From assembly GCA_030685015.1 (NCBI GenBank), contig JAUXWS010000101.1:1-17195 (forward strand): a DNA stretch of 17,195 nucleotides, given 5' to 3'. A model generated the notes under the pieces. It made no database searches. It saw nothing but the letters and a program-made list of their open reading frames with translations, and was not told the DNA's origin. The position numbers and the translations under genes were made by a program. This document shows, in pieces, positions 1,113 to 15,795 of the stretch; the first letter of the stretch is position 1; every line of letters begins with the position of its first letter. Source of the DNA: a bacterium. Lineage in GTDB: Bacteria; CAIWAD01.

Positions 1113-1699
1113 GCCGCCTTGCCCGCCACCGGAGCCTCCACCGGCTCCCCATCCCCCGCTTCGGCGCCAGGGGGATCCACCCAGCGCAAGGGCATGTTGA
1201 GGGCGAAGTGGAAGGCCATCAGGAAGAAGCCGGCGGGGATCACCGCCTGCAGGGGCCAGGCCGGCCAGGGCTGCCCGGCCAGGGCACCCAGCACGGACCA
1301 GTCCGGCCAGGCGAGGGGATCGAGCAGGTCGCCGAACTCCCGCGTTTGTCCGACGAAATCCCGCGCGGCCAGGGCCAGGCGGGCGCAGATCCAGGCCGAG
1401 AGGCCGTCGAGGACCATGCCCGTCCAGCGCCCCACCGTCGGGGAGAGCAGGCGGCCCAGGGCATCGATGCGGATGTGGCGGGAACGGGCGGCGGCCAGGC
1501 CGGCGCCCACCATGCCGATCCAGAGGACGAAATGGCGGATCAGCACTTCGCCCCAGTCCAAGCCGCCCTGGAACTGGCGCAGCACCACCTGCAGAAAGGA
1601 CAGGACCATCAGCAGCGCGAGCAGGACGAGCAGCAGCATCGCCTCCGCGCGATCAAGGGCGGCTCGCAGTCGGACCAGGCTGTGCAGGACGCGGCTCAT
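1109..1699 (-). CDS. dctQ: TRAP transporter small permease (DctQ)
   Basis: This is the small integral-membrane subunit of the TRAP transporter, which pairs with DctM in the inner membrane. The product is 196 residues with four predicted membrane helices at about 20-40, 53-72, 90-112 and 150-168, the standard DctQ layout. The motif RSRHIRIDALGRLL (72-85), after the second helix, matches the conserved 'H-I-x-I-D' region of the family. The C-terminus is a short Pro/Glu/Ala-rich cytoplasmic tail. I chose the ATG at 1699 because it overlaps the dctP stop in a TGATG arrangement and gives the right family length. The same frame stays open to 2209, but those upstream codons only shadow dctP. No good Shine-Dalgarno is visible, consistent with coupled translation. 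Confidence 0.93.
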   Translation of the reverse strand: MSRVLHSLVRLRAALDRAEAMLLLVLLALLMVLSFLQVVLRQFQGGLDWGEVLIRHFVLWIGMVGAGLAAARSRHIRIDALGRLLSPTVGRWTGMVLDGLSAWICARLALAARDFVGQTREFGDLLDPLAWPDWSVLGALAGQPWPAWPLQAVIPAGFFLMAFHFALNMPLRWVDPPGAEAGDGEPVEAPVAGKAA

Positions 1700-2700
1700 C
1701 AGGGCTGGGCGCGACGGGCCCGGATGAGCACCCGCGCCCGCTCCAGCAGGGCGGCATCGTAGAGGGAACCGGCCAGTTTGTCCTGGACGCGGATGCCGAT
1801 CGTCTCGAAGCCGCGCGCTTCCGCCTCGCTGACGGGGGTGACGCGCTGGATGCCCGCCTTGAGGAAGGCCTCGAGGGCGGCCTGGTTGTCGTGGCGGCTG
1901 GCCGCGGTCAGCTGGCGCAGGCGCCGGCGGGCGATCTCCTTCACCGTGGCCTGATGGGCGGCGGGGATCTCTTCCCAGATCCGGCGGCTGACCAGCACGG
2001 CGCCCGCGGCGCAGGCCATGGGCGGATCGCTCACGTACTTGACGCGCGATTGCCATTGCAGCACGCTGGCGCCGTAGGGGGAGGCGTAGGCGCCATTGAT
2101 GAGGCCGGTCTGGAAGCTGGTCAACACATCGGGCAGGGCGAGGGGGATGGGCTTCAGGCCCAGCTCGCTGAAGTAGGCCCCGGCCAGGGGGTCGCCCTCC
2201 CAGATCCACAGCTTCTGCCGCCCAAGGTCGGCCAGGCTGCGCACCGGATCGCGGGTGAAGAAGTGGACGAAACCCACCTCGGCCCAGCCCAGCAGGATGA
2301 AGTCCTTTTCCTCAAAGAGGGTGGCGAAGGTGGGAAAGAGGCCTTCCAGCACGGTGTCCACCTCCGCCGCCGAGCGGAAGAGGTAGGGGAGGTCCAGCAG
2401 GCGCGCGTTGGGCTGGATGAGACCCATCCCGACGCCCGTGAAGCCGCCGCCATGGAGCTGTCCGATCCGCATCTTGCGGATGACGTCCTTCTCGTCGCCC
2501 TGTACCCCGCCCGGATAGAACTTGAACTTGACGGCCCCGCCCGTCGCCTGTTGGACCTCGGCGTCCAGTTGCTCCATGATGGTCATCCAGGTGGAGTTGC
2601 GCGGCGCCACGGTGGCGAACTTGATGACGGTCTCGGCCCGGGCGGTCGTCCCCAAGACCAGGAGCAGCAGCAAGACGGTCAAGGCAAGGCGTCGCGGCAT
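1699..2700 (-). CDS. dctP: TRAP transporter substrate-binding protein (DctP family, TPAT type)
   Basis: This is the periplasmic ligand-binding subunit that delivers substrate to DctQM. The product is 333 residues with a clear Sec signal peptide (MPRRLALTVLLLLLVLGTTARA, probable cleavage before E23). The mature start ETVIKFATVAPRNSTW (23-38) is typical of the DctP family. Other family segments are GGFTGVGMGLIQPNARLLDLP (85-105), EGDPLAGAYFSELGLKPIPL (168-187) and FQTGLINGAYASP (196-208). The usual 'G-x-K-x-R' segment with the carboxylate-binding Arg here reads RQKLWIWEGDP (161-171), with Trp164 at the Arg position. The ATG at 2700 is preceded by GGAAGGA with a six-base spacer (2707-2713). The frame extends to 2850, but that part lacks a signal peptide and overlaps the intergenic hairpin. 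The gene follows tatT and overlaps dctQ. The substrate is unknown and probably not a simple dicarboxylate. Confidence 0.94.
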   Translation of the reverse strand: MPRRLALTVLLLLLVLGTTARAETVIKFATVAPRNSTWMTIMEQLDAEVQQATGGAVKFKFYPGGVQGDEKDVIRKMRIGQLHGGGFTGVGMGLIQPNARLLDLPYLFRSAAEVDTVLEGLFPTFATLFEEKDFILLGWAEVGFVHFFTRDPVRSLADLGRQKLWIWEGDPLAGAYFSELGLKPIPLALPDVLTSFQTGLINGAYASPYGASVLQWQSRVKYVSDPPMACAAGAVLVSRRIWEEIPAAHQATVKEIARRRLRQLTAASRHDNQAALEAFLKAGIQRVTPVSEAEARGFETIGIRVQDKLAGSLYDAALLERARVLIRARRAQP

Positions 2701-2793
2701 GGTCCATCCTTCCGATTGTGCCGGGACAAGGTAGAAATGCGGGGGGCGACTCGGGCGGCCAAGCCCGGGCGAGAAAGATAGTCCGGGATTGGT

Positions 2794-2812
2794 CGGGCTG
2801 CCCCGCAACCCG
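2794..2812 (-). terminator. Stem-loop abutting the tatT stop codon
   Basis: On the transcribed strand CGGGTTGC, loop GGG, then GCAGCCCG forms an eight-pair stem with one G-U wobble. It begins at the base after the tatT TGA. No U-tract follows, so it is not a classical intrinsic terminator. It sits in the 112-bp tatT-dctP gap and could protect or process the mRNA, or attenuate between the T and P genes. The structure is direct from the sequence; the role is inferred. Confidence 0.45.
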
Positions 2813-3679
2813 TCAGAACAGCTCGCCCCTCCGCGCAGCCAGAAACTCAAGCTGCTCCAGGCACCAGGAGTTGAGCAGGGCCTGGGGGTGGTCCAGATAG
2901 CGCGCGGGGTCCTCGTCCAGTACCAGGAGGATCTCTTCGAAGCGCTCCTCGTCCAGGGCGGCAGGACAGTAGTGGCGGGCCTCGAAGAGGAGGGGCAGCA
3001 GGAAATCCGCTCCGCCCAGCCGGGCCGCCGTCTGGAAGCGCGCCCGTCCCGCGTCGGGGTCGCCGCCCACGAAGCGGGGCCGCGTGCAGGCCAGGGCGCC
3101 CAGGAAGAGGTGGCCGGCGCCGAAGAAGTAGCCCTCCTCCAGTTCCAGGCAGCGCTGGATCATGGCCTCGACGCGTGGCAGGTGGAAAAGGGCCTCCTGG
3201 GAGCCCAGGTTGAGGTTCATCCAAGCGCCATAAGGGAATGCGGTCCAGAAGAGGGCAGGCAGGTCGGCGGCGCGGCAGCTCCTCAACCAGGCCTGGAAGG
3301 CCTCCTCATCCCCGGCGAAGGGATCCCGCCCCAGCAGCTCGCGGCCCAGGTCCCGCGCCCGCAGATAGAAGGCGCCGGCCCGCAGATCGTCCACGCCTTC
3401 CCAATAGACAAGCCCATAGCCGGTGAGAGCCATCGCCTGAAGTTCCTGCAGCCGCGCCTGGTCATGGGTGCGGCGCAGGCCCGCAATGAGGTGCAGGTCC
3501 GTCTCGAAGGCGCTGCGGGCCAGGCGCAGGTCCGGCTCGGCGAAGAGGGCCGCCACAAAATGGTCGAGCGTGGGGGTGATCCCCCTGACCGCCATCCGTC
3601 TCACCGAGCAGCCGGCCAGGTTGAAGAGGAGCAGCGACACCAGCGTGAGGCTCCATGCGGCGCGTCCCGGATTCGTCAT
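2813..3679 (-). CDS. tatT: TatT-family lipoprotein (TPR-type TRAP-associated component)
   Basis: This is the periplasmic T component of TPR-protein-associated TRAP transporters (TPATs), known from Treponema pallidum, where an oligomeric TPR-like lipoprotein binds the P subunit. The product is 288 residues. It has a lipoprotein signal peptide with lipobox LAGC (Cys24), followed by an alpha-helical body. Diagnostic regions are PALFWTAFPYGAWMNLNLGS (141-160) and the TPR-like FGAGHLFLGALACTRPRFVG (186-205), followed by GDPDAGRARFQTAARL (206-221). The ATG at 3679 overlaps the upstream lipoprotein's stop as ATGA and has an AGGAG Shine-Dalgarno seven bases upstream (3687-3691). The gene lies directly upstream of dctP, the expected TPAT order. 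The annotation rests on motif recall and context, not on a search. Confidence 0.9.
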   Translation of the reverse strand: MTNPGRAAWSLTLVSLLLFNLAGCSVRRMAVRGITPTLDHFVAALFAEPDLRLARSAFETDLHLIAGLRRTHDQARLQELQAMALTGYGLVYWEGVDDLRAGAFYLRARDLGRELLGRDPFAGDEEAFQAWLRSCRAADLPALFWTAFPYGAWMNLNLGSQEALFHLPRVEAMIQRCLELEEGYFFGAGHLFLGALACTRPRFVGGDPDAGRARFQTAARLGGADFLLPLLFEARHYCPAALDEERFEEILLVLDEDPARYLDHPQALLNSWCLEQLEFLAARRGELF

Positions 3680-4377
3680 GGTCGTGCTCCTCCCTCCAGC
3701 AGGCGGGCCACGTCACGGGCCCCCTTCATCATCAGGCGACCGGCCCGGTCCGTCCGGGCCGACATCATGTGCGAATCGGCTTCGCGGCTCACCAGCCGGC
3801 GAAGGCCGCTGTGCCCTCCCCGGGCCGGCTCGTGCACCTCGTAGTCCAGCTCCAGCCAGCCGAACTCCCGTCCGCTGTCGTCCAGGAGATTGATCGACTC
3901 GAAGAAGCGCAGGAAGACATTGCGGCGGAGGGACTCCAGCCGCAGGGCGCGCACCTCCAACACGCGGCTGCGCTCGCCGGGAACCAGGCCGTAGAGGTCC
4001 AGCCAGCGGCCGGCCGCGCGCTCGCCGGGAAAGGCGGCCACGGCCAGACTGTCGCTACGCAGGGGCCGCACCAGCACCCAGGAGCGGCGCTTGCACTCCT
4101 CTTCAAGAAAGCCCTGCCAGACGCGCAGATAGGCCTCTCCGTCGCCCCGGCTTTTCTCCAGGCGACGGTCCATCTGGAAATTGCCGCCCGACCCGAAGCA
4201 GACGGGGGAAAGGAAGAGCGTGTCAGGCTGGGTATTGAAGGGGAGCGCGCCGGACGTGCCGAAGGGGATGCGCGGGGCGCAACCGCTGGCCAGGATCAGG
4301 ACCACCAGTCCCAGGAGGACGAGCGACGTCGACTTGGGCGCCGGTACCGGCTCACCGGAGTGTCGGGTCGAGAACAT
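3676..4377 (-). CDS. Small lipoprotein of unknown function leading the TRAP operon
   Basis: I do not recognise the family. From the ATG at 4377 the product is 233 residues with a lipoprotein signal: a hydrophobic run STSLVLLGLVVLILASGC (16-33) ending in lipobox ASGC (Cys33). The mature part has an amphipathic stretch EAYLRVWQGFLEEECKRRSW (81-100) and likely beta strands around RVLEVRALRLESLRRNVF (138-155) and EFGWLELDYEVHE (171-183). The C-terminus is basic and helical. The pattern loosely resembles ABC- or Mla-type auxiliary lipoproteins, but this is weak. Its stop overlaps the tatT start by four bases (ATGA), so it is probably translated with tatT and may be an accessory TPAT component. The frame is open to 4605, but residues encoded upstream of 4377 look non-coding and the signal peptide fixes the start. 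No clear Shine-Dalgarno is visible. Confidence 0.75.
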   Translation of the reverse strand: MFSTRHSGEPVPAPKSTSLVLLGLVVLILASGCAPRIPFGTSGALPFNTQPDTLFLSPVCFGSGGNFQMDRRLEKSRGDGEAYLRVWQGFLEEECKRRSWVLVRPLRSDSLAVAAFPGERAAGRWLDLYGLVPGERSRVLEVRALRLESLRRNVFLRFFESINLLDDSGREFGWLELDYEVHEPARGGHSGLRRLVSREADSHMMSARTDRAGRLMMKGARDVARLLEGGARP

Positions 4378-4585
4378 GTTCAGTTTCGATGAATGGGGTT
4401 CGCCCTCCCACCACCCCCCACCCACCCGGGGCACGCTGTCTCTCCCAAAATGTTTCCGTACAAAGGGGCCAAAAAGCAGGGAATGGGAGGGACTGGCCCG
4501 GACGCTTGACAGCAGTAGCCTCCATCTGGCCATCGCCGACGAGAGCTGTCGCGCCGGGGTGACGGTCCAGTCGGCGGCCGGCCGC
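4378..4585 (-). other. 208-bp intergenic region between envelope cassette and TRAP operon
   Basis: This gap separates the propeller-like lipoprotein from the TRAP operon. It is the widest gap in the window and the most likely place for a transcription end and a new promoter. It holds the only clear AT-rich patch (about 4446-4476) and a 14-bp perfect GC palindrome at its right end. I see no small gene in it: the minus-strand frame that reads through from 4605 has no family features before the lipoprotein signal at 4377. Confidence 0.6.
4446..4476 (-). promoter_or_regulatory. AT-rich patch, candidate promoter of the TRAP operon
   Basis: Read on the minus strand, this patch contains TTTTTGG, CTTTGTACG and AACATTTTGG in otherwise very GC-rich DNA, about 70-100 bp upstream of the lipoprotein start. 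A loose match to the Bacteroidota-type promoter (TTTG, then TAnnTTTG) can be drawn with ACATTTTG as the downstream element, but its TA pair is missing. No convincing sigma-70 hexamer pair is visible. The assignment rests mainly on base composition and position. Confidence 0.25.
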
Positions 4586-4586
4586 C
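4573..4586 (-). terminator. 14-bp perfect GC palindrome at the end of the propeller lipoprotein gene
   Basis: GGCGGCCGGCCGCC is its own reverse complement and touches the TAG stop codon of the upstream gene. As RNA it can form a five-pair stem (GGCGG/CCGCC) around a CCGG loop. No U-tract follows, so intrinsic termination is doubtful. The palindrome is certain; the function is a guess from its position at the end of the cassette. Confidence 0.3.
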
Positions 4587-5962
4587 TATTGGATGGGAAG
4601 ATCATCTGTCGAAACCGAGAGCATGAAAAGCTTGATGCGGTCGCCGTCCGCCACGTACACGATCTCCTCCTCCGTGCCGGCGCGGACGCTGCGGTTGCCG
4701 TAGACGGCCACGCTGCGCGGGTTGCCCAGCTGGTCGTAGCGCCAGACCTTGAGCAGGGTGTCCACCGGTGCGCCGTTCACAACCAGGGTCGTGTCCACCA
4801 GGATCTTGCGCGCCCCCAGGGGCAGCAGAAAGTCCCCGTTGCGCCGGTAGACCTGCACGCGGTGCGCCGGCCTCTCCTCCGGCAGGGCGGATTCGCGCCG
4901 GTCAAGGACGAAGATGCCGGTGGCCGTGTAGGTGATGTCGCGGGCCTCCCAGAACCGCTGCGGGGCCATGATCGCCCGCCCCTGGAGCCCGAAATCGAAG
5001 GACCAATAGTCGACCCCGGCGTACTCCTCCACCGTCAGGCGCTGCACCTTCCAGTAGCCCACGGTGGGCGCCGCCTGGGTGAGATAGAGCGTGCCCGCCC
5101 CGTCGGCGTCCAGGGAAAGGGGCCGGTCCACCGTGCCCAGGCCCGTGCCCGAGCCGCTGACCACTTCGCTGCCCGCCTCCTCGTAGAGGTAGACGACGGC
5201 CACGTCGGGATTGGCGGTGAAGAGCACGGCGCTGGGCTTGAGGCGGATGCGGCTCAAACGGTTGCCGAAGGTATTGTTGTTGGCGACGAAGACCTCGCGC
5301 TTCCCGGCGCGGCCGCGGGCCACCGCGTCCAGGCGTGTGGAGGGGGCGCCTGCCCACAGCGGGTGAGGGCGCAGTTTGGCCTGGAAATCGGCCGTGCTTA
5401 GATCCAGGCTGTCCACGCGCAGGAACTCCCACTGCGGCAGGGTGCGGTTGGCCATCCGGTCGGCGATCCCGGCCGCGTCCAGGGTGTCGATGATCCCGCT
5501 CTGGCGGTGGCGCGCCACGCCCCCGCTCAGGCCCCAAACGAGGGGCTCGCGGGCGGCCGCCAGGTTGTGGGCCCACAGCACGTTGTCCCCCGCCACGGCG
5601 AAGAGAAGCTGTTCGGGACCCACCGCCACGCCTTTGACGCCGGGCAGCGAAAAGTCCGTCAGGCCCGCCGTCGCCACCGGGTTGAGGGCCTGGTCCCAGA
5701 CGCTGATCCGGCCGCTGCCCGCCTCCGCCACGTAGATGTGGCCGTCGTCGTTGATGAAGAGGTCGGTCGGGACGGCGCTATCCGCCAGGACGATCTGGCG
5801 GTTGAGCAGAAGGTAGCTGGAGTCCCCGGCGCCGAAGCCCGTCTCCCCCACCTTGGCCACGCTGGGCAGGGGAAAGCGGTCCACGTCGCAGCCGGCCACC
5901 GCCACCAGCAGGGCGGCCAGGGCCAGCGGCCGCAGGCGGGAAGGGAGATGGGGTCGCATCAT
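4586..5962 (-). CDS. Lipoprotein with NHL/beta-propeller-like repeats
   Basis: This is a probable envelope lipoprotein of unknown specific role. From the ATG at 5962 the product is 458 residues. It has a lipoprotein signal (RPLALAALLVAVAGC, lipobox VAGC, Cys25) and a body rich in short beta strands of the propeller type. Examples are VPTDLFINDDGHIYVAEAGS (64-83), followed by GRISVWD; LPGVKGVAVGPEQLLFAVAG (106-125); REVFVANNNTFGNRLSRIRL (222-241); LSLDADGAGTLYLTQAAP (282-299); and NPRSVAVYGN with EEIVYVADGDRIKLF (414-446). This resembles NHL-repeat or 6-bladed propeller proteins. It is last in the cassette, just downstream of the PorV-like gene. An alternative ATG at 6010 follows the upstream stop closely and has GGTGAGG before it, but would add 16 residues before the signal peptide. 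Two adjacent ATGs exist at 5962 and 5959. Confidence 0.8.
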   Translation of the reverse strand: MMRPHLPSRLRPLALAALLVAVAGCDVDRFPLPSVAKVGETGFGAGDSSYLLLNRQIVLADSAVPTDLFINDDGHIYVAEAGSGRISVWDQALNPVATAGLTDFSLPGVKGVAVGPEQLLFAVAGDNVLWAHNLAAAREPLVWGLSGGVARHRQSGIIDTLDAAGIADRMANRTLPQWEFLRVDSLDLSTADFQAKLRPHPLWAGAPSTRLDAVARGRAGKREVFVANNNTFGNRLSRIRLKPSAVLFTANPDVAVVYLYEEAGSEVVSGSGTGLGTVDRPLSLDADGAGTLYLTQAAPTVGYWKVQRLTVEEYAGVDYWSFDFGLQGRAIMAPQRFWEARDITYTATGIFVLDRRESALPEERPAHRVQVYRRNGDFLLPLGARKILVDTTLVVNGAPVDTLLKVWRYDQLGNPRSVAVYGNRSVRAGTEEEIVYVADGDRIKLFMLSVSTDDLPIQ

Positions 5963-6016
5963 GGGTGCCACTCGCTTGGATTCACCGTGGGCTGCCGGGC
6001 TGCCGGGCATGGGGCC

Positions 6017-7015
6017 TCACCAATTGAACTGGCTGGAAAGGCGGCGGCTGTGGTCCAGCAGGCCGAAGTCGCTGTAACTGATATCCATGCGCACGCCCAG
6101 GCCCCAGCGTTCGAAGGAGAGGCCGGCGCCCAGGGTCCACTTCTCCTCGCCGCCGTTGAAGCGCCATCCGCCACGCAGGAAGGCCGCCTGCCGCCAGCCG
6201 TACTCCAGGCCCAGGGCATAGCTCTCCAGGTTGTCGACGGGATGGTTGATCTGGGCCGCGGCCAGCACCTTGTGGTCCACATCGTCCCAGACGTGCAGGG
6301 AGCTGCCCAGGCGGAAGACGGTGGGCGCCGAGAAATCCTCCCAGGAGCTGCGCCGGGAGCCGTCCGCCGTGGTCCAGCCGCCCTCCGGCTGGAACTGCCC
6401 GCCGAAGTTGACCAGGGCCACGGCCACGGACAGGTCGCGCCAGCCGGTCCGGTAGAAGGTGCCCAGGTCCAGCAGGAGGCCGTCCATCGTCACCTCGGCG
6501 ATGTCCTCCCGCACGTAGCGGGCCGTCAGGCCGCAGGAGAACTGGTTGGTCAGCTGGAGGGCGCCCGTCACCTGGAGGAACTGGTCGGTGAAGCTGAAGG
6601 TGCGGCCGTCCCCGTCGGGGTGCTGCTCCGTGGTGACGGCCATCTCGTCCGTGCCCAGCTGGCCGTAGGCGAGGCCCAGGTGGAGGATGGGGCTCATCTC
6701 CCGCGAGTAGCCCAGCCAGGTGTAGGTGATGTCGGCCGGCCAGCGCAGATGGTTGACGGCCACCTGGTTGCCCTTCAGGTGGCTGAGCCCGGCCGGATTC
6801 CAGTAGAGGGCGGTGGCGTCGTCGGCCACGCCGGCGAAGGCCTGGCCCATCCCTTCGGCGCGTGCGCCCACGCCGATCTTGAGAAAGCCCAGCACGGTGG
6901 TGGCGGCCCGCTCCTCGCCGAAGTTGTGGATCAACTGCTGGCCCCGGGCGGCGGGCTGTGCCGCCAGCAACAGAAGCAGCCCCAGGACCAGCCGCACTGT
7001 GTCGCGAGGAATCAT
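6017..7015 (-). CDS. PorV/PorQ family (UPF0164) outer-membrane beta-barrel protein
   Basis: This is a FadL-like barrel family protein. PorV is a type IX secretion component and outer-membrane shuttle partner in Bacteroidota, and paralogues occur widely in FCB genomes. From the ATG at 7015 the product is 332 residues with a signal peptide (MIPRDTVRLVLGLLLLLAAQ, cleavage near Ala22-Gly25). The family signature is plain at 44-79: FLKIGVGARAEGMGQAFAGV, then ADDATALYWNPAGLS. The rest alternates amphipathic strands and ends in an aromatic residue (SSQFNW), as barrels do. In-frame ATGs at 7045 (TGATG overlap with the receptor stop) and 7036 are alternatives. They would put an acidic MAGMEEDGAP stretch before the signal peptide, so I prefer 7015, which has AGAGGA ten bases upstream. 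Which PorV/PorQ subgroup it belongs to cannot be told. Confidence 0.9.
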   Translation of the reverse strand: MIPRDTVRLVLGLLLLLAAQPAARGQQLIHNFGEERAATTVLGFLKIGVGARAEGMGQAFAGVADDATALYWNPAGLSHLKGNQVAVNHLRWPADITYTWLGYSREMSPILHLGLAYGQLGTDEMAVTTEQHPDGDGRTFSFTDQFLQVTGALQLTNQFSCGLTARYVREDIAEVTMDGLLLDLGTFYRTGWRDLSVAVALVNFGGQFQPEGGWTTADGSRRSSWEDFSAPTVFRLGSSLHVWDDVDHKVLAAAQINHPVDNLESYALGLEYGWRQAAFLRGGWRFNGGEEKWTLGAGLSFERWGLGVRMDISYSDFGLLDHSRRLSSQFNW

Positions 7016-7044
7016 GGGCGCGCCATCCTCTTCCATGCCTGCCA

Positions 7045-9891
7045 TCAGAACTGCACCGCCACGCCGAACATCACCTGGCGCGGCTCCTTGAAGCGGGCCG
7101 GCGTGCCCGGCGGCCGCACACGGTCGCGGCTCAGCTCGCTGGACCACTCGTAGTAGACGCGGCGGTTGGCGATGAAGGGATCGCCCTCCTCCCACACCTC
7201 GCCCGTCAGGGGGTTGATCCATCCCGAGGAGGCGGCGCTCTTCACGTTGAAGATGTTCTCCACCTCGCAGAAGAAGCGCAGGTCCAGGGCGCCGGCCCGC
7301 CAGTCCTTCCAGCCCTTGAAGTCCACCGTGTGCTGCATGGGCGTCATGTGGGTATAGGGCTTGGACTCCCGGTCCCGCGGCTCGTCGTCGTCGGGGTTGG
7401 CGGGGTCGCCCATGTCAATGTACTGCGGCGTGTAGCGCTGGCCGCTCTCCAGCTCCAGGCGCAGGTTGGCGCCCCAGCGGTCGGGCAGTCGCCAGGAGCC
7501 GATGGAGGGCGCCTTGCCCCGGGCGACATGGTAGCCCAGGTCGAAGCTGGTCTGCAGGGGCTTGTCCCAGCGCAGGAAGCTCTCGCTCAGATCCTCGTCG
7601 CGGCTGCCCACCCGTACCTCGTTGAGCAGGTTCTCGGCGGGGGAGCTGCTCTTGCCAGTGAGCACGCTATAGGACAGGTTCCAGTTGAAACTCCACCAGC
7701 GCTCGAAGCGATGGCGCCAGGAAAGCTCCAGGCCGCGGCTGCGGGCGTAGTCGATGTTCCAGTACTGGGTGTAGCTGATGTTGCCGTAGCGCGGGTGCTT
7801 GCTGTTGACGTTGAAGGCCGTCACGTAATTGAACATGTCCTTGTAGAAAGCCGTCAGCTGCAGCACGCTGTTGGAGTTGAACTTGTGCTTGAGTCCCAGC
7901 TCGTAGGCCACGGTGGTGGTGGGACTCAGGTTGGGGTTGCCGAAGAGCTGGTAGCTTCCCTGTCCGGCCGTCTGCAGCTTGGCGTAGACATAGGCGTATT
8001 TGGGCCGCTGGCTGAAGTGGCCGTAGCTGAAGAAGAGCATGTCGTTGTCGGTGACGGGGTGGCTGATCCCCAGCCGCGGGCTGAGCTGCGCCTTCCAGCG
8101 CCCGCCGAAGAGGCCGAAGGTCTCGTCACGGAAGAGGGCGCGGGCATCCTCGGTGAGGATGGCGGTGGCGGGGTCCTCCACCACGCGCTCCACGTAGCTG
8201 CCGGGCCGCCAGTAATCCAGGCGCAGGCCCAGATTGGCGTTCATGCCCTTGTAGCTGATCTTGTCCTGCACGTAGAAGGCGCCGGCCACCGTCCAGGCGC
8301 GGTACATGTCGAAGGAACGGCCCGGGGCCTCCGCCGTGGCCAGCCAGGGCGCCGTGATGTGGAGCAGCTGCAGCTCCGTGTTCTCCACCTCGAAACCCGA
8401 CTTCAGCTCGTGGGCTCCCGCGCTGCGGGTGATGGCCCCCTTCAGGCTGTGGGTCAGGGCGTGGTGGTCATGCCAGAAGTCCGTGTCGCCGTAGTCCCAG
8501 AAACCGTCCCCCTGGTAGATGGTGATGGAGCCGTCGGGGTTGAGCAGGTACCAGGTGGGTTCGATGTCCAGCGGGCGGTCGTACTGGGTCCAGTGCTTGC
8601 CGGCGTCGGCGTGCTGGTTGATGAAGAACATGCCGTAGGTGAAGTCGACGTAAGAGCGCTCGCTCAGCGTCTCCTTCCAGTTGAAGCTGGTCTGGCGCGA
8701 CTCCTGGCTGAAGGTGTTGTAGTTGTCCAGGTTCCGCTGGTACTCGTAGGGGTAGAAGCGCCGGTCCTCCACCAGGGTGGTGAAGTAGCCCTGGTTGACC
8801 TGCATGCTGCGGCCCCACGAGGCGGTCAGCTTGCGCGTGGGTTTGGGGCGCCAGGTCAGCTTGGCCAGCAGCGAGGCGTTGTTCTCCTGGCGCAGGGTGT
8901 AGGGCTCCATCCAGTCCTGGGAGGGCTGCAGCTCCGTGGCGTGGGGCAGGTGCGTGTCGCCGAAGGAGCCGTAGCCGTTGAGGAACCAAGTCAGGGCGCC
9001 GGGCAGGCCAATGTTGGGCAGCGGCCCTCCCACGCTGGCCTCCACCACGTCCTGGTTCTGGTTGAGGCGGGGCCAGGCGCCCAGGTTGTCCCGCTTCCAG
9101 GAGACGCTGCCGAAGAGTTCGTCGTCCCCCTCGCGCGTCTCCACGTTGATGACGCCGCTCATGGCCTCGCCGTACTCGGCGTTGAAGCCGCCCGTGATCA
9201 CCTCCACCTGCTTGACGGCGGAGGCGGAGAGGAAGACGCCCGTCCCCTGTCCCGAGACCGGGTCCTTGACGCTGAGCCCGTCGATGATGTAGAGGTTCTC
9301 GTCGGCGCGCCCGCCGCGGATGTGCACCTCGTTGTCCGACTTGGTGACCCCCGCCTGCTGGCTGACCACGTCCACGATGTTCTCCACCACCTTGGTCTGG
9401 ATCGACTCCAGGTCGAGGGTGGTGCTCGAGCTGGTGTTGTCCACCTGGTAAAGCGGCTTCTTGCCAATGATGACGATGTCCTCGCCCTTGAGGAAGCTCT
9501 TCTCCAGGGCGATGTCCTGCTGGAGCGCCTGGTTGTCCAGGACGAGCACGCCGGTCACCAGCACCGTCTTGTAGCCCAGCATGCTGAACTCGAGGTCCAC
9601 CGTGCCCGGCTTCAGCTGGCCCACGATGTAGGCGCCGTCCAGGTCGGTGGCCCCGCCACGGTAGGTGCCCTTCACCACCACGTTGACGCCGGCCAGCGGC
9701 TGCCCCGTCTCCTTGTCCGTCACCCGGCCGCGCAGGCGGCCGTCGGCCGCGGCTTGGCCGGCCAGGCCGAGCGACAGGGCCACAAGGATGATCAAGGCCG
9801 CCGCCCGCGACCACAGCCCCGTCCGCCCGGCACGGCCCGCCCAGGGACGCGGGGCGGGCGCGGTCAAGGCCCTACCAGTTGAAATCATCAT
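7045..9891 (-). CDS. TonB-dependent receptor with carboxypeptidase-regulatory-like N-terminal domain
   Basis: This is an outer-membrane TonB-gated channel of the SusC/CirA-like type. The product is 948 residues. It has a signal peptide (LWSRAAALIILVALSLGLAG, 26-45), then a CarboxypepD_reg-like beta-sandwich (RLRGRVTDKETGQPLAGVNV, 52-71, to about 125) and a TonB-box-like EDIVIIGKK (137-145). The plug domain spans about 155-250 and includes EVHIRGGRADENLYIIDGLS (188-207) and QVEVITGGFNAEYGEAMSGV (228-247), followed by INVETREG. A long aromatic-rich barrel runs to the terminal Phe (MFGVAVQF). The first 20 bases overlap the end of the upstream lipoprotein gene, and no good Shine-Dalgarno is visible, so coupled translation is likely. 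The ATG at 9891 is followed by a second in-frame ATG. The substrate is unknown. The neighbouring PorV-like gene and lipoproteins suggest an outer-membrane complex. Confidence 0.95.
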   Translation of the reverse strand: MMISTGRALTAPAPRPWAGRAGRTGLWSRAAALIILVALSLGLAGQAAADGRLRGRVTDKETGQPLAGVNVVVKGTYRGGATDLDGAYIVGQLKPGTVDLEFSMLGYKTVLVTGVLVLDNQALQQDIALEKSFLKGEDIVIIGKKPLYQVDNTSSSTTLDLESIQTKVVENIVDVVSQQAGVTKSDNEVHIRGGRADENLYIIDGLSVKDPVSGQGTGVFLSASAVKQVEVITGGFNAEYGEAMSGVINVETREGDDELFGSVSWKRDNLGAWPRLNQNQDVVEASVGGPLPNIGLPGALTWFLNGYGSFGDTHLPHATELQPSQDWMEPYTLRQENNASLLAKLTWRPKPTRKLTASWGRSMQVNQGYFTTLVEDRRFYPYEYQRNLDNYNTFSQESRQTSFNWKETLSERSYVDFTYGMFFINQHADAGKHWTQYDRPLDIEPTWYLLNPDGSITIYQGDGFWDYGDTDFWHDHHALTHSLKGAITRSAGAHELKSGFEVENTELQLLHITAPWLATAEAPGRSFDMYRAWTVAGAFYVQDKISYKGMNANLGLRLDYWRPGSYVERVVEDPATAILTEDARALFRDETFGLFGGRWKAQLSPRLGISHPVTDNDMLFFSYGHFSQRPKYAYVYAKLQTAGQGSYQLFGNPNLSPTTTVAYELGLKHKFNSNSVLQLTAFYKDMFNYVTAFNVNSKHPRYGNISYTQYWNIDYARSRGLELSWRHRFERWWSFNWNLSYSVLTGKSSSPAENLLNEVRVGSRDEDLSESFLRWDKPLQTSFDLGYHVARGKAPSIGSWRLPDRWGANLRLELESGQRYTPQYIDMGDPANPDDDEPRDRESKPYTHMTPMQHTVDFKGWKDWRAGALDLRFFCEVENIFNVKSAASSGWINPLTGEVWEEGDPFIANRRVYYEWSSELSRDRVRPPGTPARFKEPRQVMFGVAVQF

Positions 9892-11335
9892 GGATCACCG
9901 TCATGAAGAGGCTGTCCAGATTGGTCGCCTTGTGCAGGGGCAGGGCGAAATAGAGCTGCTTGGCCTTGCCCGGCCGGCCGTCCGCCTCGACGCGGGCCGC
10001 CACCGTCACGCGGGGACGGTCCGGATTGCCCTGCACCTCGGGCACGAAGTAGAGTTCCGTGGCGGAACTGTCGGGCAGGAAGCCGTGGCGGGGATACTCG
10101 CTGCCCGGACTGACGAAGGAGATGGCCTCCCGCATGGCCAGGCTCGGGTAGTGGGCGAAACCGGCGCCCGGTAGCAGCGGATGGCTGGGCAGGATGCGGT
10201 CGCGTTGGTCGGTGAGGGAGTCCACCGGCACGCAGATGCCGTCGAAGATGTAGGTGCCGCCGGTGCTGCGCCGGCGTCCGATGTCGGTCGTGGTCATGAG
10301 GAGGCGGCCGCCCCGGGCCATGAAGAGGTCCAGGTTGTCGCAGGCCAGCTCGTTCTGCGTCCTCTTCCAGCTGAACCAGAAGACCATGGCGAAGTCATCC
10401 ATGATGGCCTGGAAGTCCTGGTCATCGTAGGGCAGCCAGTTCGTCGCCACCCAGAAGGTGAAGTCCTCGTGCTCCTGGTAGCCCATGGCGTCCAGGCCGG
10501 CCCGCACGTAAGGCACGCCCTCGGTCACCTCGGCCGGATCGTCGAAGACGACGAGGAGATGGCCCTCCAGCGGGCGCACGGCCCACACCTGGGCGCGGCC
10601 GTCGGCCAGCGTGTCACCGGGCCGCGGATAGCCCAGGGTCTCGCTCCAGGCCTGGGCGATGTCCTGGGCCTTGACGAAGACCCGGTGCGGACCGGGCGTC
10701 AGCTGGGCCGGCGTGAGCGAGATGGAGCCCAGGCCGGGGGGCAGGTCCTGCCAACTGCTTGTGTCGTCCAGGGCCCACACCACCCGCGTGATGGTGGCGT
10801 TGCCGTCCAGGTCCCAGGCGTTGAAGTGGAAGGTGTTGAAGCCGAAGGTCCAGCTGGTGTCGGCCGTCGTGTTGGAGAGGAGTTCCTGGCTCTGCGCCAC
10901 CCAGTCCACGCGCGGCTTCTGGTTGTAGGCCGGAAAGACCGTGACGGCGGGGCTCGGGTCCACCGCCCCCTCGTTGTCCACGGCGCGGATCTCGAAGCGG
11001 ACCAGCTCCACGTCCTGCGTCAGCAGCACGACGAAAGTGTCGCTCTCGGCCTCCGTCCGGTGCCAGACCGGGTTCCCGGCGCTGTCCACGTCGCTGGACC
11101 AGCGGTAGAGGTAGTGGTCGATCCAGCCGTCGGCGTCCTCGCCCCACCAGGCGAGGCCCACCCGCGAGGTGCTGAGGCCCAGGGTGTCCACCTGGGCGGA
11201 GTCCGCCCGGAAGAAGCCGACGGAGAGGTGGGTTTGGGGCGGCCGGTTGTCCAACCGGCTGCCGCCCCCCTCGCGGGGTTCGCAGCCAAGCTGCCAGGCC
11301 AGCGCCGGCACAATCAGGAGGATCCAGCGGGACAT
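9872..11335 (-). CDS. Large lipoprotein with Ig-like and GATase-like regions
   Basis: No named family is recognised for the whole protein. The product is 487 residues and starts with a short lipoprotein signal (MSRWILLIVPALAWQLGC, lipobox QLGC, Cys18). Residues about 30-135 and 140-250 look like two Ig/fibronectin-like beta-sandwiches (NRPPQTHLSV; VRFEIRAVDNEGAVDPSPAV; WDLDGNATITRVVWALDD). Residues about 258-487 resemble a class I glutamine-amidotransferase-like Rossmann fold: GHLLVVFDDP, VPYVRAGLDAMGY, FQAIMDDFAMVFWFSW and LDLFMARGGRLLMTTTDIG, with no obvious catalytic Cys in a nucleophile-elbow motif. The ATG at 11335 has GAGGAAGG just upstream (11337-11344). The stop lies inside the start of the TonB-dependent receptor gene, so the two are probably translationally coupled. 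It is likely an outer-membrane lipoprotein partner of that receptor (inference). Confidence 0.82.
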   Translation of the reverse strand: MSRWILLIVPALAWQLGCEPREGGGSRLDNRPPQTHLSVGFFRADSAQVDTLGLSTSRVGLAWWGEDADGWIDHYLYRWSSDVDSAGNPVWHRTEAESDTFVVLLTQDVELVRFEIRAVDNEGAVDPSPAVTVFPAYNQKPRVDWVAQSQELLSNTTADTSWTFGFNTFHFNAWDLDGNATITRVVWALDDTSSWQDLPPGLGSISLTPAQLTPGPHRVFVKAQDIAQAWSETLGYPRPGDTLADGRAQVWAVRPLEGHLLVVFDDPAEVTEGVPYVRAGLDAMGYQEHEDFTFWVATNWLPYDDQDFQAIMDDFAMVFWFSWKRTQNELACDNLDLFMARGGRLLMTTTDIGRRRSTGGTYIFDGICVPVDSLTDQRDRILPSHPLLPGAGFAHYPSLAMREAISFVSPGSEYPRHGFLPDSSATELYFVPEVQGNPDRPRVTVAARVEADGRPGKAKQLYFALPLHKATNLDSLFMTVIHDDFNW

Positions 11336-11354
11336 GCCTTCCTCGCGCAGGAAT

Positions 11355-11376
11355 GGGGCGGGCCGGAGCCCGCCCC
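11355..11376 (-). terminator. Nine-pair GC stem with UCCG (UNCG) tetraloop between cassette genes 2 and 3
   Basis: On the transcribed strand GGGGCGGGC, loop UCCG, then GCCCGCCCC gives nine perfect G-C/C-G pairs closed by a cUCCGg tetraloop, a member of the very stable UNCG class. It lies in a 52-bp gap, 12 bases downstream of the OB-fold gene's stop and 10 bases upstream of the next gene's Shine-Dalgarno. No U-tract follows. It may be an mRNA-stability or processing element, or a weak terminator or attenuator. Confidence 0.6.
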
Positions 11377-11387
11377 GTCGTCGGTCC

Positions 11388-13352
11388 TTACTTGACCAGC
11401 AGCAGCTTCAGCTGGCTGGAGCGGCCCTCCGCCTCCAACCGGGCCAGGTAGAGTCCGCTGGCGAGACGGCTGCCGTCGAAGACCACGCTGTGCCCGCCGG
11501 CCGGCCGCCGGCCGCTGGCCAGCAGGGCCACCTCCTGCCCCGCCAGGTTGACCACGCTGAGGCGCAGCTCGGTCTCCCGCGACAGCTCGTAATGGATGGT
11601 CGTGGCCGGGTTGAAGGGGTTGGGCACGGCCGCGGCCAGGCTGAACTCCACCGGCCGGGTCGGCCGGGCAAGGCTGCTCAGGTTGATGAAATCGTCGTTC
11701 TGGCGCGGGGCGATCTTCCAGGCGTTGAAGTTGTAGGTGATGACGCCGCGCAGGCCGTCCATGTGGGCGCCCACGGACAGCTGGACATCCCAGGTGCCCA
11801 GGTTGTCCACGATGATGGGGTTGCCCTGGCCGTCCTGGACCAGCCACTCGCCGAAGCCGGCGTCCGCCGTCACGGTCAGGTTGGACAACTCCACCAGCAC
11901 GCTCTCCCAGGGCTCGGGACCGGCCAGGAAGCTGCCCAGCGACAGGGGCGTGACGGGAGAATCGTTGCCCGGGGAGTGCAGAGTGAAGCTGCTGATGCTG
12001 GTCAATTCCGTCAGGCCGTTGTACTCGGTGACCATGCCCCCCAGGGTGACGAGGTCGCCCCGCTCCAGCTGCTCCAGCCAGACGCCGTGGCTCTGGTTGT
12101 TGTAGATGTAGATGGCGTGGTTGGCGCCCCCCGCCTCGGCAATGATGTAGTTGCGGTAGGTGTCCTCCACCGTGAAGCCGAAGTCCGTGTAACCGAAGGT
12201 GACCACGCCCGTGATGGTGGCCGGTCGGCACTGGTAGAGGCTGGCGCCGTCGGCATAGGTCTCGCTCTGGATCTGCAGGCAGGTGGTGGGCGTCACGCTG
12301 CTCACGTATAGCTGCGGGAAGGAGGGCGAGCCGGCGCCGTCGGCGGGATGGTGGCTGGGGTTGCCCTCGTCGTCCATGGCGTAGATGTAGAAGTCCACCA
12401 TGGAGCCTTCGGGCTGGGCGGGCAGGTCGGCCGTGTAAAGGATGGGGTTGGAGAGGTCGCGCGTGAGCGGGAAGTCGATGAAGGCCCCGCCGTTGACGCG
12501 ATAGTAGACGAAGGCCTCGTCGATGGCCGTGTTGTCCGAGATGTTCACGGCGATGTGGATGAGATCGGCGGGCGTGGCGCCGCAGGGGCCGATCGTTGTG
12601 CCGCTGATGATGGGCGGGCCCACCGCCAGGATGAGGTCGTTGATGTCGCGGGGCATCACGTTGTAGTTGCTGTAGACCTGGTAGATGACGCCGCGGATCA
12701 TCGAGAAGGTGGAGCCCAGGGGCGGGCGTCCATAATTGGAGAGGCCGTAGGCCGCCGTGCGGATGACCGCCCTGTTGCCCTCGGGATCGGCCACCGTGAA
12801 CTGCCGCCAGGAGGGCGGCGCGCTGATGTCCACCACCACCGCGTCGTGGATCTCCATCAGCATGGCCTCGTAGCGCTCGGCCACATGGTCCTCGTGGCGG
12901 ATGGGGTCCAGGTACCACATGTCCACGAAGACGGGATCGGGCAGGGGCTGCTCATAGTCCAGCACCTCCACATCCACGGAGGGATCATTGGGGACGATCT
13001 CCGTCATGTGGGAGTAGCGGCCGGATTCCTGGGTGCGGTACTCGGCCACCGTGCCCGTGACGCGCAGGCGGTCCCCCACGAAGACGTCGAAGGCGCCGCC
13101 CACGTTCTTGAAGACGAGCACGCCGCTGTAGTCGCCGCCGTTCTCGTCAATCAGGTAGAAGCTGGAGTTGCTTCCAGCGTAAAAATGTTCCGACGAGGAG
13201 AGGGCGACGCCCTCCACCGTCACCAGTTGGCCGACAGTGCCGGCGCTGTCCGGGCCGAAGATGGTGGGCAGCTGCATCTCGGCGATGGTCATCTCCTCCT
13301 GGGCCGTGGCCAGGCCGGCCAGGCAGAAGAACAGGGCAATCCAGGACCTCAT
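11388..13352 (-). CDS. Secreted OB-fold-like protein with T9SS/FlgD-type C-terminal tail
   Basis: This is a secreted, probably surface-directed protein of unknown activity. From the ATG at 13352 the product is 654 residues with a signal peptide (MRSWIALFFCLAGLATA). Residues about 30-130 (GQLVTVEGVA; SSFYLIDENGG; VFVGDRLRVTGTVAEYRTQ) and 375-460 (ATITGVVTFGYTDFGFTVED; ERGDLVTLGGMVTEYNGLTE) look like OB-fold modules of the DUF5689/YhcR nuclease-associated kind. Weaker copies lie at about 165-245 and 485-560. Residues about 250-350 look like an Ig-like insert. The last 80 residues (VPNPFNPATTIHYEL, then ASGLYLARLEAEG and KLLLVK) match the T9SS type-A/FlgD Ig-like sorting tail. No nuclease catalytic domain is visible. 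The strong AAGGAGGA ribosome site at 13357-13364 fixes this start over the frame's upstream ATG at 13409. Confidence 0.85.
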   Translation of the reverse strand: MRSWIALFFCLAGLATAQEEMTIAEMQLPTIFGPDSAGTVGQLVTVEGVALSSSEHFYAGSNSSFYLIDENGGDYSGVLVFKNVGGAFDVFVGDRLRVTGTVAEYRTQESGRYSHMTEIVPNDPSVDVEVLDYEQPLPDPVFVDMWYLDPIRHEDHVAERYEAMLMEIHDAVVVDISAPPSWRQFTVADPEGNRAVIRTAAYGLSNYGRPPLGSTFSMIRGVIYQVYSNYNVMPRDINDLILAVGPPIISGTTIGPCGATPADLIHIAVNISDNTAIDEAFVYYRVNGGAFIDFPLTRDLSNPILYTADLPAQPEGSMVDFYIYAMDDEGNPSHHPADGAGSPSFPQLYVSSVTPTTCLQIQSETYADGASLYQCRPATITGVVTFGYTDFGFTVEDTYRNYIIAEAGGANHAIYIYNNQSHGVWLEQLERGDLVTLGGMVTEYNGLTELTSISSFTLHSPGNDSPVTPLSLGSFLAGPEPWESVLVELSNLTVTADAGFGEWLVQDGQGNPIIVDNLGTWDVQLSVGAHMDGLRGVITYNFNAWKIAPRQNDDFINLSSLARPTRPVEFSLAAAVPNPFNPATTIHYELSRETELRLSVVNLAGQEVALLASGRRPAGGHSVVFDGSRLASGLYLARLEAEGRSSQLKLLLVK

Positions 13353-13356
13353 GGTG

Positions 13357-13364
13357 TCCTCCTT
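13357..13364 (-). promoter_or_regulatory. Strong Shine-Dalgarno for the OB-fold/T9SS-tail gene
   Basis: On the minus strand AAGGAGGA lies four bases before the ATG at 13352. It is the best ribosome-binding site in the cassette. It decides the start in favour of the Met that opens a clean signal peptide, rather than the upstream ATG at 13409. Confidence 0.75.
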
Positions 13365-13373
13365 GGCTTGAGG

Positions 13374-13388
13374 GCCGCCGCGGGCGGC
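13374..13388 (-). terminator. Short GC stem-loop between cassette genes 1 and 2
   Basis: On the transcribed strand GCCGCC, loop CGC, then GGCGGC forms a six-pair perfect stem in the 67-bp gap, about 10 bases upstream of the next gene's Shine-Dalgarno. It has no U-tract. In DNA this GC-rich such a short stem can arise by chance, so the functional call is weak. Confidence 0.3.
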
Positions 13389-13419
13389 GCTTGGATGATT
13401 CGTTGCCACAGGGGGGCGG

Positions 13420-15594
13420 TCATTTGATCACGGCGAACTTGCCGATCTCGACCTTGCCCGTGGCCTTGTCCTCCACCGTGAAGAGGTAGAGGCCGGTGGC
13501 GATGGCCTGGTTGTGGCGGCTGACCAGATCCCAGGCGTGCTCGCCCCCGGAGAAGACAAAAGGTGTCTCGCCGATGCTGCTGCCCGCCACCTGCTCCTGC
13601 GTCTTGCGGATGAGGGCCACGTCCAGGCCCTGGTAGGTGGCGGCATCGTGCTCGACGGAGTCGACGAAATCGCCGGCCAGGGTGAAGATGCTCACCGTGC
13701 AGCGCGCCGGCAGGTGGGTGAACCAGATCATGCGATCGTAGGGACCGCTGCCGTCCCACGAGGCGCGGCCCCGGTAGGGGTTGGGGTAGACGCCGGGCTT
13801 GCGGTCGCGGCCGTCGGCCAGGCCGTCGGGCAGGCTGCCCGGGAAGACGAAGACCCAGTTCTCGGTCACGGCCGACTCCAGACTGGGCAGGTTGTTGGCG
13901 GGCAGGCCGTGGTCGTAGGCGGAAACGGCCAGCCAGTTGCCCTGGGGACGCCCGGAGAGCAGGTTCTCCATGCGGAAGGCGTAGTGGTACCAGACGCCGC
14001 CCAGCTCCATCGAATCCGCGTCCACGCCCAGGGCCCGGCGCACGGTGATGTCATCCAGCCCGGTGTTGGGCCAGATCTCGTTGATGATGTCGAACTGGGC
14101 CACCAGCGTGCGCGTCCCGCCGGCGCCCGGGGTGCGCAGGCTGCTGTAGATGCGGTAGCCCTCGAAGTCCTGCTCCCCGAGAATGGGGTCGACGAAGGAT
14201 TCGGGATCGTTGCGCCAGTAGAGGGTCAGCTCGCGCTCGCCCACCTCCACGGCCAGGCGCGGCGCCGGGGGCGGATTGGGCAGGAGGTAGCGGTCGAGGA
14301 CACCATCGCCGTCCAGGTCCTCCTCGGGCTGGAGAATGCCGTCCCGGTTCTTGTCCTCCCCGTCCCAGGCGATACGGGCCCAGGTGGTGTTGGCGACCAG
14401 GGGGGCGGCCTTGCGCTGCAGGCGTTCGAGACCAGTCAACAGCTCGCCCTCGGGCACGAAGTCCTGCCGGCCGCAGCCGATGGCGAAGACGGCGTTCAAG
14501 CTCTCGCCGGGGGCCAGACGCCCGAAGGAGCCGGCGCTGGCCAGCATCATCCAGCTGCTGCTGTTGGCCGTGCCGTAGGGAAAACTGGCGTCGCTGAGGG
14601 AGGGGCGGGCCTGCATGGCGGCGTAGCGCGCCGCTTCGTTGTTGGGCATGACCAGGGCGGGGAAGCTCTGGTTGTAGTCGCGGTTCCAGATCCAGGTGTT
14701 GGCGCGGGGCTTGATGCGGCGGGGATCCGCCACGTGGGGGGCGGAGCCGCCCAGGAAGCGGCAACCCAGGATGCTCTCGGCATAGCCGTTGTCGCCGTCC
14801 GCGTCGTAGCCGACCGCCATCCAGATGCTGTCCCCCGCCGCCGGGCTGGCCTGGTCGGTCAGGACGACGCCGGCCAGGTTGTCGTACCACAACCAGCCGC
14901 CCCGGCCCGGGGCGTAGTAGTTGTGCAGGTTGAAGTTGCCCACCGCCTCGTCGATCCAGTAGCCCACGAAAAGCGAGTCGATCGTCCAGCCCGTGCCGGC
15001 GGGATCCAGGGCGTGGCTGATGTTGGTGATGGTCAGGTCCAGGATGACAAAGGCGTTGGCATAGCTGTAGTTCCAGGCGTGGCTGTCCAGATCCACCCGC
15101 AGTCCCAGCGGCGTGTGGCCGGTGATGACTTCCCCCGTGCCGGGCACGACGCGGCTGGTGTCCGTGAAGGACATGAGGAAATCCTGGTGGCTGACGGCCT
15201 CCGGATGGAAGTTGGGGCTGTCCGGAAATGTGGAGCGCACCAGGATGGCGCCGCTGCGGTCCTGGGCGGCGGGCACGTTGTTCCACTCCCAGCCCGCCCC
15301 GCCGAAACTGCCGTCCATCACGGCGGTGGAGACGCGGGGCTCCCCGCCCACCACGCCCCCCACCCACAGGCCGCCATAGGAGAAATGCTCCACTTGTTCG
15401 AAATCCAGATCGGAGTACTGCTTGTAGAGGCAGGACGGCTGGCCCTCGATGTTGTAGCCGTGTCCAATCACACCGAAGTTGGTGATGGTCATGCCCAATT
15501 CCCCCACCGAGGTGAAGGTGCCGAAATCGTCGGCGGCGGGCGCGGCCAGGGGGGCGGCCAGCAGGGCAAGGGCCAGGATCCGCAGATTCATCAT
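13420..15594 (-). CDS. Large secreted protein with EF-hand loop and C-terminal sorting-like tail
   Basis: The family is not recognised beyond general features of secreted FCB proteins. From the ATG at 15594 (a second ATG follows at 15591) the product is 724 residues with a signal peptide (MMNLRILALALLAAPLAAPA, cleavage near Ala20-Ala21). The N-terminal 400 residues are beta-rich, with many Trp/Tyr/Gly (FSYGGLWVGGVVGGEPRVST, 71-90; AFVILDLTITNISHALDPAG, 181-200). Residues 414-425, DKNRDGILQPEE, fit a canonical calcium-binding EF-hand loop, followed by a partial second one (DLDGDGVLD, 426-434). A fibronectin-like region follows (RLAVEVGERELTLYWRNDPE, 446-465). The tail (GVYPNPYRGRASWDG; VSIFTLAGDFVDSVEHD; ATGLYLFTVEDK) resembles FlgD/T9SS sorting tails. 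The frame runs to 15675, but that extension delays the signal peptide and is rejected. It is the first gene of the envelope cassette. Confidence 0.82.
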   Translation of the reverse strand: MMNLRILALALLAAPLAAPAADDFGTFTSVGELGMTITNFGVIGHGYNIEGQPSCLYKQYSDLDFEQVEHFSYGGLWVGGVVGGEPRVSTAVMDGSFGGAGWEWNNVPAAQDRSGAILVRSTFPDSPNFHPEAVSHQDFLMSFTDTSRVVPGTGEVITGHTPLGLRVDLDSHAWNYSYANAFVILDLTITNISHALDPAGTGWTIDSLFVGYWIDEAVGNFNLHNYYAPGRGGWLWYDNLAGVVLTDQASPAAGDSIWMAVGYDADGDNGYAESILGCRFLGGSAPHVADPRRIKPRANTWIWNRDYNQSFPALVMPNNEAARYAAMQARPSLSDASFPYGTANSSSWMMLASAGSFGRLAPGESLNAVFAIGCGRQDFVPEGELLTGLERLQRKAAPLVANTTWARIAWDGEDKNRDGILQPEEDLDGDGVLDRYLLPNPPPAPRLAVEVGERELTLYWRNDPESFVDPILGEQDFEGYRIYSSLRTPGAGGTRTLVAQFDIINEIWPNTGLDDITVRRALGVDADSMELGGVWYHYAFRMENLLSGRPQGNWLAVSAYDHGLPANNLPSLESAVTENWVFVFPGSLPDGLADGRDRKPGVYPNPYRGRASWDGSGPYDRMIWFTHLPARCTVSIFTLAGDFVDSVEHDAATYQGLDVALIRKTQEQVAGSSIGETPFVFSGGEHAWDLVSRHNQAIATGLYLFTVEDKATGKVEIGKFAVIK

Positions 15595-15785
15595 GGTGCA
15601 GCCATCGTCCACGTTGAGGGGCGGGGACTTCGCCGACCACGGCGGGGCGGCCGATGCTCTCGCCAGTTGAATCATGGTCCGAAAGGGCCGTTAATGTAGC
15701 ATGAGGAGTGTCACGGAGCGAGGACAGCGGCCGGGAAGAAGGGCCGCCGGCCCTCTGCGGAAGCCGTTTCGGCCCCGGCCGGCGC
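15595..15785 (-). other. 191-bp intergenic region upstream of the envelope cassette
   Basis: This gap lies between the pabB stop and the first cassette gene. It holds GC-rich stems next to pabB and a less GC-rich stretch near 15685-15705 (minus strand TGACACTCCTCATGCTACAT). TACATT there resembles a -10 hexamer, but no -35 is visible at proper spacing. The cassette promoter is expected somewhere in this region. No small gene was found. Confidence 0.45.
15740..15754 (-). terminator. Candidate terminator hairpin downstream of pabB
   Basis: On the transcribed strand AGGGCC, loop GGC, then GGCCCT forms a six-pair stem followed by UCUUCC. It lies about 30 bases after the pabB stop. The pyrimidine-rich but not U-only tail makes it a weak intrinsic-terminator candidate. 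Confidence 0.35.
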
Positions 15786-15795
15786 TCAACCGGGG
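15773..15795 (-). terminator. Stem-loop enclosing the pabB stop codon
   Basis: On the transcribed strand CCCCGG (15795-15790) can pair with CCGGGG (15778-15773) around an 11-base loop that holds the pabB TGA. Flanking GGCCGGC/GCCGGCC runs allow alternative pairings. The pairing is visible; a role in 3'-end formation of the pabB mRNA is inferred. Confidence 0.3.

Follow-up and report, generated by a model that had tools for sequence, protein, structure and literature searches.

A conserved six-gene cassette of T9SS-tailed proteins, lipoproteins, a TonB-dependent receptor and a PorV-family barrel with a possible role in nucleic-acid scavenging

SusCD uptake systems and utilisomes of Bacteroidota are loci in which a TonB-dependent receptor of the CarboxypepD_reg type is encoded together with surface lipoproteins, binding proteins and degrading enzymes. 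For the type IX secretion system (T9SS) of Flavobacterium, type B cargo is encoded with linked PorP/SprF shuttles, and type A cargo is all recognised by PorV (PMC12618676). Barrels of the FadL/PorV family hold surface proteins in PorQ-PorZ (PMC10202324) and BamG-BamH (PMC12611786, PMC12578637). ExeM depends on an OB-like region to degrade DNA (PMC6085458). The inorganic phosphate (Pi) starvation PusCD loci of Flavobacterium tie TonB-dependent import to phosphodiesterases (PMC8115612). Here we characterize a cassette of six genes, termed A to F, that resembles each of these systems in part. It is located on contig JAUXWS010000101.1 (17,195 nt, considered over its whole length and called the window in the following), which is one of the 105 contigs (C101) of a 3.6 Mb genome (assembly GCA_030685015.1) of a bacterium from the lineage CAIWAD01. 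No description of the six-gene cassette was found in the open-access literature searched.

The six genes lie on the minus strand between positions 15594 and 4586 and encode exclusively exported products:

13420..15594, minus strand: A, a 724-aa secreted protein with a beta-supersandwich N-domain (residues ~22-438), an FN3-like region and a long type A-like T9SS tail
11388..13352, minus strand: B, a secreted protein of 654 aa whose OB-fold regions are of the type seen in ExeM/NucH and EEP nucleases and which ends in a type A T9SS tail
9872..11335, minus strand: C, a 487-aa lipoprotein with two Ig/FN3-like domains and a C-domain resembling class I glutamine amidotransferases (GATase) and flavodoxin
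7045..9891, minus strand: D, a 948-aa TonB-dependent receptor with CarboxypepD_reg, plug and barrel domains
6017..7015, minus strand: E, a 332-aa outer-membrane barrel of the PorV/PorQ family (NF033709) whose profile matches the PorV structure 6h3i
4586..5962, minus strand: F, a 458-aa lipoprotein with an NHL-type beta-propeller (2e-38 versus NHL structures) and an invariant lipobox cysteine

With ATG starts the junctions measure 67 bp (A-B), 52 bp (B-C), -20 bp (C-D), 29 bp (D-E) and 54 bp (E-F), in agreement with the original prediction of six co-directional genes for exported products with gaps below 70 bp. The GC content at third codon positions (GC3) of the six reading frames is 0.92-0.95, indicative of a strong coding character. 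A scan of positions 4300-15900 revealed no sigma-70-like promoter, and terminator-like sites occurred there at the chance level of shuffled sequences; both results are uninformative in such DNA.

An order found on this contig only had been named beforehand as the outcome that would speak against a joint system. The order turned out to be conserved across phyla. Exactly A-B-C-D-E-F was obtained in 101 of 144 loci from many phyla of the Fibrobacterota-Chlorobiota-Bacteroidota (FCB) group, which shows that the arrangement is more than chance; the thresholds for assigning A to F were set by us, and locus and genome counts are not phylogenetically independent. The other loci comprise one with the order C-D-E-F-A-B, one with B inverted upstream of A, and subsets, of which many of the shorter ones are cut by contig ends. 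At least 566 stretches of the genomes searched contain a relative of A; their record titles name Neomarinimicrobiota, KSB1, LCP-89, Fermentibacteria, Eisenbacteria, Ignavibacteria and Bacteroidota, among them the cultured Thermaurantimonas aggregans. When A to F were searched as profiles, most loci with enough room showed this order, and A to E followed each other in 46 of the 56 loci having at least 9.5 kb downstream. Among A-positive Bacteroidota genomes picked blind to the neighbourhood, 17 of 20 carried the full cassette. Within 80 named loci, the best-scoring matches of one search, C and D typically overlap by a few bp and E and F abut.

For the N-domain of A (residues 22-438; AlphaFold model with a predicted local distance difference test score, pLDDT, of 83.5) a resemblance to the N-domains of GH116/GH94 enzymes was found at a Z-score of ~19, with the catalytic barrel being absent. 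No Pfam or NCBIfam family matched A, its tail included, such that the TIGR04183 cut-off was not reached. Profile-profile comparison of the last 125 residues with type A tails provided a probability of 94.9% and an E-value of 4e-8. Since this is only a distant match, we call the tail type A-like rather than type A. It carries an extra stretch that ends in a conserved SGGEHAWDL motif. The tail of B exceeded the TIGR04183 cut-off (27.5 versus 23 bits) and fell just below that of PF18962 (26 versus 27), and the family profile of B matched T9SS tail structures such as 8glj. The match of B to the ExeM/NucH model NF033681 was partial (2e-16; 59.9 bits, below the cut-off of 300), its best stretch covering only profile positions 2-118 of 546 and thus not the catalytic EEP domain. 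The B family profile also matched the N-terminal part (residues 4-233) of the EEP-nuclease structure 9sf8 at 1.6e-8 and the nucleic-acid-binding lipoprotein 3f1z at 1.6e-3.

The lipobox cysteine of C (Cys18) is kept in at least 90% of 42 orthologues. C has no match in Pfam and NCBIfam; in its model (pLDDT 86) the C-domain resembles HisH (Z 13.7) and chain 8aa2_G of the levan utilisome (Z 9.7). The latter likeness ranks behind matches to the GATase fold in general and is not taken as functional evidence. In D, plug (PF07715, 1e-10) and barrel (PF00593, 2e-23) both exceed their cut-offs, as expected for a TonB-dependent receptor, and are accompanied by PF13715 (2.5e-16). D is not a SusC/RagA protein (67 versus 368 bits on TIGR04056), and none of A, B, C, F and the downstream lipoprotein G (see below) matched a SusD family, which gives no support for SusD-type lids. 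Solved relatives of D are restricted to weak, partial matches to YncD/PqqU, such that no ligand was predicted from D.

E scored about 170 bits on the PorV/PorQ subfamily model NF033709 (cut-off 90), only 60.7 of the 250 bits set for the PorV equivalog NF033710, and 75.5 of the 220 bits set for the PorQ equivalog NF033711. The PorV candidate of this genome is another gene, located on contig C68 (209 bits on NF033710, cut-off 250). The E profile matched the PorV structure 6h3i at 6.6e-14 and found no BamG among the PDB structures searched, which gives no support for a BamG identity. The cassette E proteins group in one clade (support 93/91). Its sequence places E in a clade of PorV paralogues distinct from canonical PorV. 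Overall, the gene products are as originally predicted: two tail proteins, two lipoproteins with cysteines conserved across their families (one of them a propeller), a carboxypeptidase-regulatory-type TonB receptor and a PorV/PorQ barrel.

Outside the cassette, four paralogous modules on contigs C100, C95, C28 and C40 of the same genome each combine a TonB receptor, a protein with a long A-like tail and a PorV-family barrel. This suggests a general rule by which each receptor of this kind is paired with a tailed protein and a barrel of its own. PorV-family paralogues are also adjoined by PorU-like sortase paralogues, which score below the PorU cut-off (C87:7613-12345 and C41:32733-37135).

Core T9SS genes, for which a search of the genome had been proposed, were detected as the translocon SprA (633 bits, cut-off 200) and the PorU sortase (492.6 bits, cut-off 420), together with 74 T9SS tail matches and 15 PorV-family matches. 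A GldL/PorL match was missing in this genome, a point against our interpretation in principle; the control was likewise silent, such that the result is uninformative. Among 296 sampled Bacteroidota genomes A was present in 89, all of them SprA-positive, and in none of the 69 genomes that lack SprA (Fisher p 3e-13, relatedness not corrected for). One genome that passed the A threshold through its C-terminal part only was excluded from this count. In this sample only SprA-positive genomes carry the cassette. SprA was also found in 49 of 50 named A-bearing genomes. Genomes usually carry one copy of A, whose score is well separated from those of other tail proteins. In T. aggregans (2916-20939 of its locus, L135) the cassette and its EEP gene stand directly downstream of a porP-like gene, gldK, gldL, gldM and gldN, where GldK was confirmed by family search and the remainder was read from sequence. 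Separately, in the genome of the window the PorU sortase gene has an EEP-family gene as its neighbour (C13:63978-68700).

In other lineages the cassette is adjoined by phosphodiesterase genes of three unrelated families (EEP, PLD and NPP). The flanks, 1.28 Mb in total, contained 61 such genes, with 53 of them within 1 kb on the same strand; the models used for the nucleases derive from proteins that had first attracted attention next to the cassette, so the search favours their close relatives. Half of the sampled Bacteroidota cassettes (30/60) have an adjoining phosphodiesterase gene. In Flavobacteriales and Marinimicrobia the genes for T9SS-tailed EEP proteins lie upstream of A; in other lineages they are found downstream of F. 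OB-plus-PLD proteins follow F in Ignavibacteria, and NPP-type phosphodiesterases occur in another group. Mapping the neighbour states onto the A tree required 15 changes, which implies that the association was gained or lost several times. Individual loci also contain a nucleoside hydrolase or GDPD gene; a nucleoside hydrolase gene stands upstream of the permuted C-D-E-F-A-B locus. The nuclease-type OB folds of B and the recurrent phosphodiesterase neighbours make nucleic acids or related phosphodiesters the likeliest predicted substrate. Bacteroidota are reported to be major degraders of extracellular DNA in sediments (PMC8289736).

One explanation for these observations, which we hold with about even confidence, is that the cassette forms an outer-membrane unit for scavenging and uptake of nucleic acid or a related phosphodiester, and that the six genes are an ancient unit that was largely vertically inherited. 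A and B would be exported by Sec and then by the T9SS to the cell surface through SprA. E would collect or anchor A via its long tail, comparable to PorV with type A cargo and to PorP/SprF barrels with their linked type B cargo; by this analogy E is probably a dedicated shuttle or anchor for A. Together with the lipoproteins C and F, A and B would assemble over D as an extracellular, lid-like, ligand-binding layer. Nucleic acid or a related phosphodiester would be bound and cut at the surface by a phosphodiesterase, and D would import the resulting fragments using TonB energy.

Compared to SusCD systems, no SusD-like protein was found in the cassette, its receptor is not a SusC, and it adds two T9SS-tailed partners and a PorV-family barrel. 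Like type B cargo and PorP/SprF, it encodes a tailed surface protein together with its own candidate shuttle barrel, but with a type A-like tail and a barrel of the PorV family. OB-type regions are shared with ExeM/NucH, and some cassette loci have a separate EEP or LTD-EEP protein beside A-B. In contrast to ExeM/NucH, B has no EEP catalytic domain, and the nuclease and OB parts reside on separate T9SS-tailed proteins. The PusCD loci differ in that they belong to the SusCD type and are polyphyletic in a single genus; the excerpts of PMC8115612 considered mention no PorV-family barrel.

On the minus strand the gene order reads pabB, A to F, G, H and a DctP gene of a tripartite ATP-independent periplasmic (TRAP) transporter. 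The features that follow the cassette are:

3676..4377, minus strand: G, a lipoprotein of no known family (no Pfam match) that follows F in the genus and family only
2813..3679, minus strand: H, TAtT, the T-component of a TRAP transporter (PF16811, 1.3e-34), with DctP next to it in the genus
1699..2700, minus strand: DctP, a TRAP solute-binding protein (PF03480, 2e-39) with solved TRAP homologues, conserved at genus level

Positions 1-3679 of the window hold a TRAP transporter operon including the TAtT lipoprotein. The neighbourhood conserved in the genus extends beyond position 4586 over the lipoprotein, TAtT and DctP genes. G is a lineage-level appendage of the genus and family, and H and DctP are such appendages of the genus.

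Several observations weigh against the scavenging unit. The cassette of the window has no adjoining nuclease gene, and in its genus the TRAP transporter is found there; the substrate was therefore deduced from orthologues. In single cases enzymes that do not act on nucleic acids (GDPD, patatin) stand beside the cassette. The fold of the A N-domain is best known from carbohydrate enzymes, and sugars and proteins, too, are ligands of OB folds. It is conceivable, if rather unlikely, that the same uptake machine serves a polysaccharide or glycoconjugate, where the A supersandwich would bind sugar, the OB folds of B an oligosaccharide, and EEP, PLD and NPP would cut phosphodiester-containing glycans or lipids. 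Residues 22-438 of A match N-domains of GH116, GH94 and GH65 enzymes (Z 14-19), and the C-domain of C has its weak fold match to the levan utilisome lipoprotein. However, fold alone reveals no function, no glycoside hydrolase was seen recurring beside the cassette, where the enzymes found repeatedly are phosphodiesterases, and the OB-type domain of B also occurs in several PLD proteins. The linkage, too, is incomplete: several Bacteroidota keep only A-B together, with C elsewhere and no D-F around it. The C-D-E-F linkage expected where A-B stand alone was not borne out, C being found among housekeeping genes. Such a separation would fit independent genes that share merely the regulation of envelope functions and form no joint machine, but order and tight spacing are kept across phyla, and C tracks A even when it lies outside the operon (8/8 A-positive versus 0/8 A-negative genomes, all SprA-positive), which leaves little probability for this explanation.

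The original prediction had left open secretion, display or uptake, a reading that is supported by the conserved order, the presence of sprA and porU and the restriction to SprA-positive genomes in the Bacteroidota sample. The TonB receptor makes secretion alone less likely, as does the scattered occurrence of the cassette in T9SS-positive genomes. E and the surface proteins might instead act in T9SS cargo attachment or outer-membrane protein assembly in the manner of PorQ-PorZ or BamG-BamH. These pairs likewise have a FadL/PorV-family barrel that holds a surface protein, but they are other proteins and complexes, linked to the cassette by analogy only. The position directly downstream of gldKLMN in Thermaurantimonas would suit such a module. 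Still, only 89 of the 227 SprA-positive Bacteroidota carry A, so the cassette is not a core part of the T9SS or of the beta-barrel assembly machinery (BAM), and among the solved structures searched the E profile found PorV and no BamG. We know of no role of a TonB receptor in either machinery. Overall we regard an assembly or attachment module as improbable, slightly more so than glycan uptake.

For the scavenging unit a wider, more tentative proposal is an FCB-wide machine for extracellular nucleic acids, in which a TonB receptor is supplied by OB and nuclease proteins that the T9SS displays, and a dedicated PorV-family shuttle serves a distinct, long type A-like tail. The route by which products of DNA degradation cross the outer membrane in Bacteroidota is not described in the excerpted text of PMC8289736; the cassette makes this question testable, e.g. 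in T. aggregans. It also allows testing whether T9SS shuttle specificity for type A-like tails exceeds a single PorV. Since about 39% of the sampled SprA-positive Bacteroidota have A, as do many uncultured phyla, establishing the function of the cassette would annotate hundreds of hypothetical genes. If the nucleic-acid machine exists, it would give fragments of nucleic acids a path across the outer membrane, and the T9SS would have a second class of shuttles dedicated to specific cargo.

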